DNA of 27,723 bases, taken from IMG/VR virus record IMGVR_UViG_3300029448_000323, positions 1 to 27,723 of that record; one strand, written 5' to 3'. Shown here piece by piece: positions 20,071-24,314 of the stretch. Made by a program: the position numbers and the translations under genes. Below the pieces are notes generated by a model, which was given only the letters and a program-made list of their open reading frames with translations, did no database searches and had not been told where the DNA came from. Positions within the stretch are counted from its first letter, which is position 1, and each line of letters begins with the position of its first letter. Origin of the DNA: a virus.

Positions 20071-20414
20071 AACCACCTACATGTTGGAAATGGACACATA
20101 TACAAGATCTAAATCCAACTCGATTAAACATTATCCCTTTAGATAAAATTTATTGGGATAATAAATATCGAATCGAATATAGACGAGATAAAATTTGCAG
20201 ATGTTGCGGTGGTGAAAGGTATTTAAACGCAGATATTCGTTATCCCGGAATACTTTTCATAATGAAACCTAACAGCTATGGGGAGATATACCATGTTTTA
20301 GATGGATGTCATCGTATACAAAAGATGTTAGATCAAGGGTTTACTGAAGCTCTATTTTTCATAACAACCAAAGGAGAAATGAAGCAAAGTGATTCCAAAA
20401 ATCCATATCCCTAA
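20064..20414 (+). CDS. ParB/sulfiredoxin-fold-like protein with a Cys cluster
   Basis: Encodes 116 residues, starting within the end of the previous gene. The opening LNIIPLDKIYW and the later YHVLDGCHRIQKMLDQGFTEALFFI (residues 77-100) match the layout of ParB-like nuclease domains, where an I-P-L-x-x-I start is paired with a DGxHR box and a final beta strand. A cysteine group C45-R-C47-C48 and C82 sits around it, which could bind metal. ParB-fold proteins bind nucleotides or DNA; the partition-specific parts are absent. Here the protein is probably a stand-alone enzyme-like or DNA-modifying factor of unknown role. Confidence 0.6.
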   Translation: MVKPPTCWKWTHIQDLNPTRLNIIPLDKIYWDNKYRIEYRRDKICRCCGGERYLNADIRYPGILFIMKPNSYGEIYHVLDGCHRIQKMLDQGFTEALFFITTKGEMKQSDSKNPYP

Positions 20415-20784
20415 ATCTCTAGACATCCCTCAGATCTACTTCAGACCGCCTACAGCAGAGGTACCTTCATATAAACCTATGATCGTACCCCCAGCTGATT
20501 TAGAACGTCCTGAAGAAACTAAAGCGGAAGAGACTACAGAAGAACCTGTAGCACCTACTCTAAAGATTCCTGTATTGGATATTAAAATGCCAATACCGGA
20601 AACTGCGGTAGTAGTTACGGCTGTAACAACAGCTGTCATAGCAGTAACAACAACCACTGTTACTCAATCTTTATTTGAACCAATCAAAAAGAAAGTTCAA
20701 AAGCAACTACAAGCTAAAGTTAATAAATGGAAGGAAAACCAGAAGAAAAAAAAGGACTCATCAAAAAGCTCAAAGACGGAATAG
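20389..20784 (+). CDS. Pro-rich single-pass membrane protein
   Basis: Starts at GTG 20389, overlapping the previous gene by 26 bases; 131 residues. Residues 1-71 are Pro/Glu-rich (PPTAEVPSYKP, VPPADLERPEETKAEETTEE), residues 72-94 are a membrane-like stretch of Val/Thr/Ala (VVVTAVTTAVIAVTTTTVTQ), and residues 98-131 are strongly basic (KKKVQKQLQAKVNKWKENQK). I recall similar Pro-rich proteins in cyanomyoviruses. Location before a holin candidate suggests a lysis or envelope role, but no spanin lipobox is present. Overlaps the next gene by 58 bases. Confidence 0.65.
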   Translation: MIPKIHIPKSLDIPQIYFRPPTAEVPSYKPMIVPPADLERPEETKAEETTEEPVAPTLKIPVLDIKMPIPETAVVVTAVTTAVIAVTTTTVTQSLFEPIKKKVQKQLQAKVNKWKENQKKKKDSSKSSKTE

Positions 20785-21032
20785 AAGATCAAGAACAACA
20801 GATTCAGATCCTCGGTACGTTCGTTAGATTGGGTGTTGTGGTGTGGTCCGGGTTTATAATTACTTTAAACTATGTAGAACTACCTATGGTTAAGAAATCT
20901 GGTAACTCAGATATCACGTTCGTGGCATCAGTGTTTACAGGAGCTCTGGCTACTTTTGGCTTGTCTACTGGTAACTCTAAAGACAAAGGTAAACCAATGA
21001 ACTGTCCTATGGCAAAGAAAAAGGAAGAATGA
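20727..21032 (+). CDS. Putative holin (two membrane segments)
   Basis: Encodes 101 residues. A charged N-terminus (EGKPEEKKGLIKKLKDGIEDQEQQ) precedes membrane segment 1 (about residues 29-50, ILGTFVRLGVVVWSGFIITL) and segment 2 (62-80, DITFVASVFTGALATFGLS), then a basic tail with MNCPMAKKKEE. Small size, two helices and charged ends are the class II holin pattern; T7 places its holin (gp17.5) after the fibre genes, as here. The start overlaps the previous gene by 58 bases; no better internal Met exists. Endolysin is not in this window. Confidence 0.6.
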   Translation: MEGKPEEKKGLIKKLKDGIEDQEQQIQILGTFVRLGVVVWSGFIITLNYVELPMVKKSGNSDITFVASVFTGALATFGLSTGNSKDKGKPMNCPMAKKKEE

Positions 21033-21400
21033 AAAAATGGCTTTTACTCTTAGCACTGTTCTCCCCCTCGGTAGCAAGAGCAGAGTTAGTCACGCCCCAA
21101 TTCACCCAAGGGTCGATGAACTCAACAACGACTACAACTCAAGAGATTGTGGAGGAAATAACCATCACAACTTATGGGTCAGCCTTAAACAAGTGGAGTG
21201 GGGACAATATAACCCATACCTCCACCTCATCAGGCGGAATAGCGGATTCAGATTCGGTATTCAACATGACAACAGCTGGTTCAGACTTCTCTTTAGAAGT
21301 AATAACAAGAGCAGCAAGTCAGGTACTAGAAGTAACAGAAATAGATCGAGAAATCGACACTACCTCTACTACGGTATCATTATCAGTATTCTCACAATAG
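21029..21400 (+). CDS. Exported hypothetical protein with signal peptide, overlapped by a second frame
   Basis: ATG overlaps the holin-candidate stop (ATGA). It encodes 123 residues: signal peptide MKKWLLLLALFSPSVARA with cleavage before ELVTPQF, then a Thr/Ser-rich beta-like mature part (QGSMNSTTTTTQEIVEEITI; TSTSSGGIADSDSVFNMTTA; SLSVFSQ at the end). There is no Cys, so no lipobox. I recall similar small exported proteins in cyanomyoviruses, beside a partner like the next gene. The whole gene lies within a second open frame (21037-21957). Confidence 0.65.
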   Translation: MKKWLLLLALFSPSVARAELVTPQFTQGSMNSTTTTTQEIVEEITITTYGSALNKWSGDNITHTSTSSGGIADSDSVFNMTTAGSDFSLEVITRAASQVLEVTEIDREIDTTSTTVSLSVFSQ

Positions 21401-21957
21401 GAGCACCAATTTATGCTGAAGAGGGAGAAACCAACAATACTTCAAACCCTGTGGCAGCGGCTACAGGAAACGTTACAAATCAAGCCGTCCAGTTCCAGAA
21501 TAACGGAGCCCCTTCGCGTCAGGTATACGGACCCAACATAAGTTGTAACGGATCAACTATGACCTTCTCACCATTCTATATGGGGAATCATACCTCTCCT
21601 TATGATGATACTATGGCTCAACAGAGCTATACTGTAGCTGAAAACTGGGGATTCCAAGTGAATTTTATGGTTCCTTTAGATAGAGAAGGTTTAAATAGAT
21701 GTAGAGCTATAGCTGCTCAACAACATGAAAAGATGAAGTTGAATTATGAACTAGTTAGAATTGATAACTGTGCTAAACTTCAACAGAAAGGATTCATGTT
21801 AATGCCCGGGTCACGGGTATGGCATCTTTGTAGTGATGTAATTCCTATAGTTGCATTTAAAAAAGCAGAACAAAAGGTACTTGCATGTAAAGAGCCACCA
21901 AAGCCTTGGTATAAACCTTGGCAGAAAACTAATAAATGCCCATTAAAAAATGATTGA
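21037..21957 (+). CDS. Exported hypothetical protein in the -1 frame; start uncertain
   Basis: The frame is open for 306 codons from ATG 21037 to 21957. Convincing protein sequence appears only from about 21349: an Arg-rich, then hydrophobic, segment (RNRHYLYYGIIISILTIGAPIYA) reads like a signal peptide, then GNVTNQAVQFQNNGAPSRQVY, ISCNGSTMTFSPFYMGNHTSPY, and a Cys-containing C-terminal half (RCRAIAAQQHEKMKLNYELV; NCAKLQQKGFML; HLCSDVIPIVAF). No ATG, GTG or TTG lies in this frame between GTG 21193 and that segment. The start may be 21037, 21193, a rare codon, or the result of a -1 frameshift from the preceding gene. The residues encoded before 21349 look like out-of-frame translation. Function unknown. 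Confidence 0.5.
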   Translation: MAFTLSTVLPLGSKSRVSHAPIHPRVDELNNDYNSRDCGGNNHHNLWVSLKQVEWGQYNPYLHLIRRNSGFRFGIQHDNSWFRLLFRSNNKSSKSGTRSNRNRSRNRHYLYYGIIISILTIGAPIYAEEGETNNTSNPVAAATGNVTNQAVQFQNNGAPSRQVYGPNISCNGSTMTFSPFYMGNHTSPYDDTMAQQSYTVAENWGFQVNFMVPLDREGLNRCRAIAAQQHEKMKLNYELVRIDNCAKLQQKGFMLMPGSRVWHLCSDVIPIVAFKKAEQKVLACKEPPKPWYKPWQKTNKCPLKND

Positions 21958-22711
21958 ACCACCATCCATAAATGAAGAAATCGAATTAGATGCTAGAAAA
22001 GTTGGAGTATTCGATTTTATATCCCCCGCACATGTAGAAGAACTAGTTACAGAAATCAATTGGCACAGAGGTAATGGTAGCCTTGCAGATGGGGTGGAAA
22101 GTGTCAAATCCAATAACAGAGAAGCAGTAGCAGTATTAAAAGTTAGCAAACAAGCTTCCTTACTTCACGGTATGGGTACTTTTTGGGATAGAGTAGAATC
22201 TCCAGAGTGGATTCACTTTGTATGTCAAAAAGGTAATACACATCCAATGTTTAGTATAACTCAAGAAGGAGGTTATTATAGAGCACATTTTGATGCACCC
22301 CAGAATGGTCACTTTAGTAATACATTAATTCTTAGTGATCCTGATGAATATGAAGGCGGTGAATTAGAAATATTAATTGATGGAGAAATTAACCAATTTA
22401 AAGTTAATTCTGGTCAAGTAGTTAGCTATGAAACTGGATTAGCTCATCAAGTTCGACCTGTAACTAAAGGAGAACGTAAAGCTCTAATATGGTGGACTCA
22501 TAGTCTGATTCCTAATATGACTGATCTTTATGCTTGGAGGACTTTAAGAAGCCTTGGACTAGAAGGTGAAGGTCCATATCCAAGAAACATTGAAGATGTC
22601 ACAGATGATTTATATGAATTTGTTAGAAAACCACATTGTATATACACTCAAGCAGCTAATAATATAATTAGAAAACACCTATACACTATGTCAAACGCTC
22701 CCTTAATTTAA
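21950..22711 (+). CDS. 2OG-Fe(II) oxygenase, PKHD/PiuC-like
   Basis: Encodes 253 residues, overlapping the previous stop by 8 bases. The double-stranded beta-helix core is visible: YYRAHFDAPQ gives the iron ligands H113 and D115; FSNTLILSDPDEYEGGELEI is the typical middle strand pair; LAHQVRPVTKGERKALIWW gives the distal His166 and the 2-oxoglutarate-binding Arg176. This order and spacing match PiuC/PKHD hydroxylases. Substrate unknown; host proteins, phage virion proteins or small molecules are all possible. A second oxygenase lies at 23742. Confidence 0.85.
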   Translation: MIEPPSINEEIELDARKVGVFDFISPAHVEELVTEINWHRGNGSLADGVESVKSNNREAVAVLKVSKQASLLHGMGTFWDRVESPEWIHFVCQKGNTHPMFSITQEGGYYRAHFDAPQNGHFSNTLILSDPDEYEGGELEILIDGEINQFKVNSGQVVSYETGLAHQVRPVTKGERKALIWWTHSLIPNMTDLYAWRTLRSLGLEGEGPYPRNIEDVTDDLYEFVRKPHCIYTQAANNIIRKHLYTMSNAPLI

Positions 22712-23032: not shown

Positions 23033-23226
23033 TGGCAAAATCAGGAGCCTCTAAAGGGGCTAAAACAATTAAACCCTTTGATGATCAAGATACAAAACTA
23101 GCACAGGGCAAGATGCCTGACCATGTTTTTGAATCTATCCAGAGACAGTATGGTAACAAAAAATATGGTAAATATACCATTGAGGATAAGAAAAACGTTA
23201 TCAACTGGCATAAAAAGAAAGTATAA
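23032..23226 (+). CDS. Small basic hypothetical protein (64 aa)
   Basis: Overlaps both neighbours by TAATG. Encodes 64 residues, with MAKSGASKGAKTIKPFDDQD at the start and VFESIQRQYGNKKYGKYTIED KKNVINWHKKKV at the end; Lys-rich, soluble. Directly precedes the small terminase gene and is presumably expressed with it. Function unknown. Confidence 0.6.
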   Translation: MAKSGASKGAKTIKPFDDQDTKLAQGKMPDHVFESIQRQYGNKKYGKYTIEDKKNVINWHKKKV

Positions 23227-23495
23227 TGGAACAGGTCAGAATACTTCCAAAGAAGGCTACTGAAGATAAGTTTAATGAGTTACATAACCTCGTCACTGAA
23301 GACTTTCTAAGGAGAGTCAGAAGTGGTGAGGCTAGTACACAAGACTTGAAAGCTGCATGTGATTGGCTTAAAACCAATGATATCACAGGTGTAGCTTATG
23401 ATGGTAGTCCTTTAGATAAATTAAGTAAAATTCTACCTAAAGTCGATCCTGAATTAGTAAAGAGGAGAATGTATGGCTCCAAAACGAGCGTCTAA
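23226..23495 (+). CDS. Small terminase subunit (T7 gp18-like)
   Basis: Encodes 89 residues, the same length as T7 gp18. The segment KFNELHNLVTEDFLRRVRSGEASTQDLKAACDWLKTNDI has the helix-turn-helix-like composition common in phage small terminases, followed by VAYDGSPLDKLSKILPKVDP. Position between lysis-type and packaging genes supports it. It would recognise phage DNA and load the large terminase (27227). Overlaps the next gene by 23 bases. Confidence 0.75.
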   Translation: MEQVRILPKKATEDKFNELHNLVTEDFLRRVRSGEASTQDLKAACDWLKTNDITGVAYDGSPLDKLSKILPKVDPELVKRRMYGSKTSV

Positions 23496-23745
23496 ACCCG
23501 GTAAGACTTCTAGGTATTACCAATCTGCTAAAGGTCGGAAGTCCTACAATAAGCAGAAAAAGAAACAAAAGAAAATTAACAGCACCGCTACTAAACGAAA
23601 GTATCGTAAGCTATTGGCACGTAAGCGTCGTCAACTAGGTATTATGGGTAAAGGCGGTAAAGATGTCAGTCATACGAGTAAAAATCGTACTAAACTAGAG
23701 ATTCCTAAGAAAAATAGAGCTCGAGGAGGAGCTAAACGTAAATGA
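23473..23745 (+). CDS. Highly basic protein with HNH-like remnant
   Basis: Encodes 90 residues, about 40% Lys/Arg. Near the end, MGKGGKDVSHTSKNRTKLEIPKKNRARGGAKRK follows the spacing of short HNH-like phage proteins (DVSH...N...NRARGG) but the full nuclease motif is not present. Strong positive charge points to DNA or RNA binding. It starts inside the small terminase gene and ends in ATGA at the next gene. A packaging or virion-DNA role is possible from context only. Confidence 0.6.
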   Translation: MAPKRASKPGKTSRYYQSAKGRKSYNKQKKKQKKINSTATKRKYRKLLARKRRQLGIMGKGGKDVSHTSKNRTKLEIPKKNRARGGAKRK

Positions 23746-24314
23746 CCGATCACATCCTACATTCACCCGGAGTCTTATCACAAGAAACCTGTAGTAGTGT
23801 AATTAACACCTTTGAGCATAATAAAGAGTTACAACAAGAAGGTAGATTTGGTGCAGGTATATTAGACCATGAATTAAAGAAATGTACTGAAATGTTTGTA
23901 GACTATAAACGTGATACAGATTTCTATCTTTATGTTGTAAAATATCTAAAAGCTAGTATAGAGGAATATAAACAAATATATCCTTATATAGATAAACTAG
24001 CACATTGGGAAATACTTGAAACATTTAAAATACAAAAATATTTACCTAATGAAGGTTACTTTAGAACTCACTGTGAAAACGAAGGTCAACTAGATGGGAG
24101 CCATAGAAGAGTACTAGCATGGATGATTTATCTAAACGAAGTACTAGATGGCGGACATACACAATTCCCTTCTCAAAACAAAGCATTCCAACCTAGAACA
24201 GGTGATATATTAATATGGCCAGCTGGCTTCACACATCCACACCATGGAGTTACAAGCGAAACACAAACAAAATACATTGCCACTGGTTGGTATTCACATA
24301 CTGAAACAAAATGA
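23742..24314 (+). CDS. 2OG-Fe(II) oxygenase, prolyl-4-hydroxylase type
   Basis: Encodes 190 residues; ATGA overlaps at both ends. The core reads LPNEGYFRTHCENEG (metal-binding H110-x-E112, where a Glu replaces the usual Asp), RRVLAWMIYLNEVLDGGHTQFPSQ (middle strands), PRTGDILIWPAGFTHPHHG (distal His among 165/167/168) and TKYIATGWY (2OG-binding Lys177). The HxE is compatible with iron binding in this phage-type subfamily. Substrate unknown. Second oxygenase in this window and not a close relative of the one at 21950. Confidence 0.85.
   Translation: MTDHILHSPGVLSQETCSSVINTFEHNKELQQEGRFGAGILDHELKKCTEMFVDYKRDTDFYLYVVKYLKASIEEYKQIYPYIDKLAHWEILETFKIQKYLPNEGYFRTHCENEGQLDGSHRRVLAWMIYLNEVLDGGHTQFPSQNKAFQPRTGDILIWPAGFTHPHHGVTSETQTKYIATGWYSHTETK

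Follow-up and report, generated by a model that had tools for sequence, protein, structure and literature searches.

Two overprinted exported proteins of a T7-like marine cyanophage, probably started from AUG codons eight bases apart

INTRODUCTION

In phage T7, genes 17.5 to 19 encode a holin, the terminase small subunit, Rz/Rz1 and the terminase large subunit. Spanins such as Rz/Rz1 are among the closest described counterparts of the gene pair analyzed here, and the −1 frame that we find was also found for 116 spanin pairs (PMC6139136). Kongari et al. 2018 placed a number of Prochlorococcus and Synechococcus phages, P-SSP7 among them, on a list of phages without spanins, and suggested that disruption of the outer membrane may be unneeded in those phages (PMC6139136). 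From cyanomyoviruses, Sullivan et al. 2010 described a cluster of hypothetical genes, T4-GC 218/219/234/235/237, which the passages of that paper dealing with the cluster judge to be probably functionally linked and possibly mobile, and to which they assign no function (PMC3037559). Our literature search on overlapping genes in cyanophages returned nothing relevant.

The window, i.e. the whole stretch of 27,723 nucleotides (IMG/VR virus record IMGVR_UViG_3300029448_000323) that was analyzed, is from a T7-like marine cyanophage. One phage of the T7-like cyanophage group, S-TIP37, has been genetically engineered (PMC8776855). Its A, B and DUF6450 genes have their nearest relatives in Prochlorococcus podoviruses, e.g. 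NATL1A-7, P-SSP10 and 9515-10a. A preliminary description of the sequence had pointed to an open reading frame (gene A) lying almost wholly inside a second frame (gene B) without a normal start, and had proposed a rare start codon, a −1 frameshift joining both proteins, or true overprinting as explanations.

RESULTS

Gene A (21029-21400; all features described here are on the plus strand) encodes a protein of 123 amino acids that matches phrog_650 (E=1.7e-31). As described previously, it has a signal peptide, MKKWLLLLALFSPSVARA, followed by E, and a Thr/Ser-rich body; the Sec cleavage site, predicted by eye, falls after ARA, at about 21082. Gene B, in its best-supported reading a protein of 306 amino acids with an ATG start (21037-21957), lies in the −1 frame relative to A, overlaps it by 364 nt and matches phrog_848 (E=1.4e-57) and phrog_1755. 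The matches span most of each protein, and phrog_650, phrog_848 and phrog_1755 are all families of unknown function. Relatives of B were found in 456 phage records, and those of A in 50 records by direct search and in 406 with a cyanomyovirus A as the query. Neither A nor B matched anything in the PDB sequence search, Pfam or NCBIfam. The AlphaFold model of A (mean pLDDT 79, pTM 0.40) is beta-rich, with long strands at 27-49 and 99-122; it had no significant match in the PDB (best E 0.14), and only three uncharacterised or unnamed viral proteins in BFVD at E<=0.001. A resemblance of A to beta-barrel pore stems was weak and was rejected as evidence. The predicted structure of B (pLDDT 66, pTM 0.38) had no significant match in the PDB either (best E 0.50).

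The downstream part of frame B, previously called clearly coding, is indeed so. It contains the predicted mature exported domain, which starts from EEGETNN at about 21418, extends to 21954 outside A and holds four cysteines (C118, C170, C193 and C213 of the 254-residue form numbered from 21193) that are invariant in 69 sequences. Directly before this domain, and across the A stop codon, we found the segment already noted as signal-peptide-like, RNRHYLYYGIIISILTIGAPIYA (21349-21417), the most hydrophobic segment of B. The hydrophobicity of its part within A is 1.72, compared with 0.88 predicted from the coding of A alone, and every clade has a site of the AxA type in front of the mature domain (by eye), both of which indicate that the B signal peptide is under selection. 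The 104 residues at the N-terminus (21037-21348) form an overprinted leader that is kept stop-free and shows no detectable protein conservation: amino acid differences in frame B are no lower there than in the unused frame. We therefore rejected the idea that the leader is conserved as a protein beyond what A imposes, and likewise its positive charge as a feature of its own, which is close to the prediction from the coding of A. Matches in genome collections to cellular relatives resemble cyanophage contigs that were included in bins from marine single cells or metagenomes. Two B homologues are in bacterial records, one on a 188 kb contig of Nonlabens xiamenensis 1Q3 (L571) and the other on a 189 kb contig of a Prochlorococcus single cell (L572); both contigs are cyanomyovirus-sized and possibly represent phage genomes inside the assemblies.

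The −1 frame is open from 21037 to 21957, as had been reported, and from 21193 onward the overlap is open more than expected by chance, since synonymous recoding of A left it stop-free in 0 of 5,000 trials with the codon usage of the window and in 1.4% with gene A's own usage. Chance recoding predicts several stops in this part, and none of 128 relatives has one. The overlap was likewise free of stops in all 218 loci of the larger set, and at sites where T gives a frame-B stop none of 239 changes was to T. Synonymous (four-fold) differences in A are 0.55 in its 5′ part, and 0.47 and 0.35 in the overlap; in B alone they are 0.58-0.62. The two frames are conserved and kept stop-free under selection and synonymous divergence in the overlap is reduced, as is characteristic of overprinted pairs. 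Judged from these sequence comparisons, A and B both appear to be genuine genes, which supports the earlier suggestion of true overprinting.

Between the A start and the B signal peptide, frame B has only two possible starts (ATG, GTG or TTG), ATG 21037 and GTG 21193; the preliminary description had correctly seen none between 21193 and the signal segment. ATG 21037 is located 8 bases after the A ATG (offset 8). A Shine-Dalgarno (SD)-like motif, AAGGA (21021-21025), precedes ATG 21029 by 3 nt and ATG 21037 by 11 nt, and may serve both starts. The GTG at 21193-21195 (offset 164 of A) corresponds to an internal start of the sister clade and is homologous to the B start of the S-RIP1 clade; in the window it has no ribosome-binding motif. 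The offset-8 ATG is kept in 217 of 218 relatives, and the sole locus without it (L448) belongs to the clade with the internal ribosome-binding motif. This conservation could partly be a consequence of the conserved Lys-Trp in A, since A of the P-SSP7 clade, in which the offset-8 ATG is usually absent, likewise has AAA as lysine codon 3.

Initially, we concluded that GTG 21193 was the main start of B, but the distribution of the ribosome-binding motif and of stops across more relatives weakened this conclusion. The equivalent codon is ATG in 184, GTG in 32 and CTG in 2 of the 218 relatives. The 27 loci with frame-B stops upstream all have ATG at this site, 24 of them with an SD-like motif. In the 191 open-frame loci, which include the window, the motif is present at this site in 18, and the codon is ATG in 157, GTG in 32 and CTG in 2 (L496, of which L019 is a longer cut, and L497); in the latter two the offset-8 ATG is the only start left. 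In the window clade, 65.6% of loci have an SD-like motif of at least 4 bases in front of A, and the SD-like motif before A was found in 136 of 191 open-frame versus 10 of 27 upstream-stop loci, counts that are uncorrected for relatedness.

In the sister clade of 31 loci, a ribosome-binding motif precedes the 21193-equivalent start in 30, and frame-B stops lie upstream in 22. The internal motif is essentially limited to this clade, which implies one or a few switches of mode rather than many; the two modes are essentially a single split between clades, with few independent changes. Substitutions are separate events, and their counts are therefore a stronger test than counts of loci. Loci outside the 31-locus clade changed synonymously 244 times at stop-sensitive upstream sites, and just 4 of these changes were to T, versus 343 of 1,253 (27%) elsewhere, whereas inside it 23 of 49 were to T, versus 41% elsewhere. 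Stops were gained 24 times in a tree length of 2.67 inside the clade and 5 times in 18.05 outside, an approximately 30-fold difference in rate. Upstream of the B start, frame-B stops per 100 codons number 0.15 in the window clade (its first 132 loci) versus 9.4, 5.4 and 5.0 in three others. The avoidance of upstream stops in window-type phages means that something reads frame B upstream of 21193, and the start that remains for such reading is the offset-8 ATG. The comparative evidence points to the ordinary ATG 21037 as the probable start of B, in place of the rare start codon or missing normal start of the preliminary description, which had named both coordinates and taken neither. As the pattern that would speak for a simple overlap and against its own proposal, the preliminary description had named upstream stops and a conserved start near 21350 in related phages. 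The outcome is divided: the sister clade has such stops and such a start, but at the 21193 site, and in most relatives of the window the frame is open to 21037.

The strongest competing explanation, which we consider unlikely but deserving of attention, is that B of the window starts at GTG 21193 (254 amino acids), or at both 21037 and 21193, with the upstream open frame being secondary. In the S-RIP1 clade, B starts solely at the site homologous to 21193, with an SD-like motif before it in 97% of loci, and in some window-clade loci this site is the only possible start. It is ATG or GTG in 216 of 218 relatives, even where the A residue is Ser, Gln, Thr or Ala, but at Lys codons the A:G ratio, 78:29, differs little from what lysine codon usage alone would give. 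A leader of approximately 104 residues ahead of a signal peptide is unusual, which counts against a start at ATG 21037. Moreover, three loci with upstream stops (L057, L115 and L479) have no SD-like motif at the internal site, indicating that an internal start can work without one. However, 173 of 191 open-frame loci, the window among them, lack the motif before the 21193 site, this site is GTG or CTG only in loci of the open-frame type, and a start there leaves the avoidance of upstream stops unexplained. With B starting at ATG 21037, the GTG 21193 of the window would be a relic or a minor second start.

In the other clades, B has dedicated starts with stops upstream, located relative to the A stop at −190 in the S-RIP1 clade, all of whose listed loci have ATG there, at −109 or −64 in the P-SSP7 clade, and at −163 or about −290 in cyanomyoviruses. 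An SD-like motif precedes B in all loci with the −163 start and rarely in the P-SSP7 clade. Frame B is open throughout A in only 2 of 74 P-SSP7-clade loci (L235 and L249); both have the offset-8 ATG, and in L235 the starts at −109 and −64 are lacking. Either these two loci converged on the state of the window's clade, or they recombined with it. In only 1 of 380 loci (L017, from P-SCSP1d of the MPP-C clade) was B scored as +1 rather than −1, with a short overlap.

It is improbable that the upstream open frame is an untranslated by-product of the protein sequence and codon usage of A. This gene is poor in T-ending codons, and by chance roughly one in three recodings with its own codon usage leaves the 5′ part in the window open, but for the same protein family other clades have stops at a density of 5 to 9 per 100 codons, and the sister clade gains them freely. 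The programmed −1 frameshift joining A to B, for which the −1 frame and the joint openness of the two frames might speak, can be set aside almost entirely, since the best slippery heptamer occurs in 29 of 132 loci and none is conserved, most relatives have a broken A6 run at codons 2-3 (54 of 132 loci keep it whole), B has dedicated starts with upstream stops in other clades, and its own signal peptide would fall mid-protein in an A-B fusion.

The A/B pair is placed between a holin-like DUF6450 gene and the packaging genes. The small DUF6450 protein (20727-21032; PF20048, E=9.6e-33) has two hydrophobic segments in a holin-like topology (by eye) and homologues in podo-, myo- and MED4-117 phages; its stop, at 21032, overlaps the A start as ATGA. 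Another conserved neighbour is a Pro-rich protein (20389-20784; phrog_9426) with a single hydrophobic segment close to a basic C-terminus; phrog_9426 also had a weak match in a cyanomyovirus. The topology of this protein recalls the C-terminal anchor of a unimolecular spanin, but without a lipoprotein signal. On the packaging side is the terminase small subunit (23226-23495; phrog_891, E=7.9e-23). Two 2OG-Fe(II) oxygenase-like genes are found near each other (21950-22711 and 23742-24314), the first of which begins within the end of B, and a cyanophage outer-membrane-protein-like beta barrel (PF24653) is encoded at 666-1022, just 5′ of the major capsid protein gene.

The module, comprising the protein with two transmembrane segments, A, B and the Pro-rich membrane protein, is common to podo-, myo- and MED4-117-type cyanophages. 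In Syn9 its families occur together as gp161, 164, 165, 166 and 167, and B and A overlap by 166 nt. In MED4-117, a third phage type that is neither T4-like nor T7-like, DUF6450-type, phrog_564, phrog_650, phrog_848 and phrog_570 genes are adjacent (L557:3971-6509), and the phrog_564 protein has a weak match to phrog_650 too (E=5e-4). The annotated A of MED4-117 also overlaps the end of the gene before it.

DISCUSSION

We estimate at roughly 0.7 the probability that A and B are truly overprinted genes for exported proteins, started at two AUGs eight bases apart, and that this arrangement arose via movement of the B start. The basis is the conservation of both frames, the avoidance of stops, the presence of two modes in the clade and the different B starts between clades. 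According to this model, a single initiation region, ATGAAAAAATGG, would serve both AUGs in the window and most of its clade, so that initiation at 21029 would give A and initiation at 21037, which ribosomes presumably use, would give B in the −1 frame. Because the DUF6450 stop at 21032 is inside the ATGA overlap, a ribosome terminating there could restart at either AUG. The B product would begin with the leader of some 104 residues, followed by a Sec signal peptide of ordinary type across the end of A and a working domain wholly downstream, and the leader would probably be removed together with the signal peptide. As only the leader and the signal peptide are overprinted, the overlap would be cheap for B while it stays stop-free, and as the mature domain begins at about 21418, after A, the overprinted part would matter least once B is exported. 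The start of B would have moved during evolution to give the present arrangement, and we infer the order of its shifts.

As for function, our best guess, a tentative one, is a role of A/B in the cell envelope, most likely in outer-membrane disruption at lysis. The DUF6450 gene, holin-like by topology only, is adjacent; no endolysin was identified in the window. It is more doubtful still that the module provides the so far missing step at the outer membrane in cyanophage lysis, acting as a lipobox-free secreted pair, with four conserved cysteines in B and a ratio set by the two AUGs. An alternative about as probable as the lysis role is that the module belongs to the virion or the infection envelope instead. 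Virion proteins that are assembled in the cytoplasm seldom carry signal peptides, which speaks against a virion location of A/B, whereas the prediction that A is all-beta and exported speaks for this alternative. So does the earlier notice of the myovirus form of the cluster, given without a function in the passages concerned (PMC3037559).

The locus illustrates how a gene start may creep into another gene. In a single clade, some loci use the site as an internal start and have stops upstream, and in others it is abandoned and the frame is kept open as far as an earlier start. This bears on the annotation of many cyanophage records, as 456 match B and several start it differently. In addition, an exported module spans unrelated types of cyanophages that are on a published list without known spanins.

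Among described genes, S-SM2 GC 235 matches phrog_848 (B), and GC 237 matches phrog_564, an A paralogue. The work on the T4-GC cluster concerned T4-like phages, and its passages on the cluster mention neither the A/B overlap nor the start (PMC3037559), whereas here the overlap was analyzed in T7-like phages. The gp165 proteins of NATL1A-7, 9515-10a and Syn9 are direct homologues of B to which no function is given. The annotated gp165 start in NATL1A-7 and 9515-10a is the same offset-8 ATG as in the window, while the annotation of P-SSP10 places the B start at the internal site, and that of NATL2A-133 still further in; annotators thus disagree.

The likeness to embedded Rz/Rz1 genes that the preliminary description had remarked on extends to gene arrangement and neighbourhood, but not to the lipobox, the absence of which it had itself noted, or to gene order. 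A scan for the lipobox that marks an o-spanin picked out a similar motif in 3 of the 363 A proteins and 6 of the 344 B proteins, and for this reason A/B are not classified as spanins. In spanin pairs the i-spanin comes first and the overlapping lipoprotein second, whereas the first protein here is a plain secreted one without an anchor, so that the order is reversed; the hydrophobic segment of B, unlike that of spanins, ends in a cleavage-type AxA site, and no sequence relation was detected. However, like overlapped or embedded spanins (Rz/Rz1; T7 18.5/18.7), A and B are overlapping genes for exported proteins in different frames, located near a holin-like gene and terminase genes, and they might be doing the same job.
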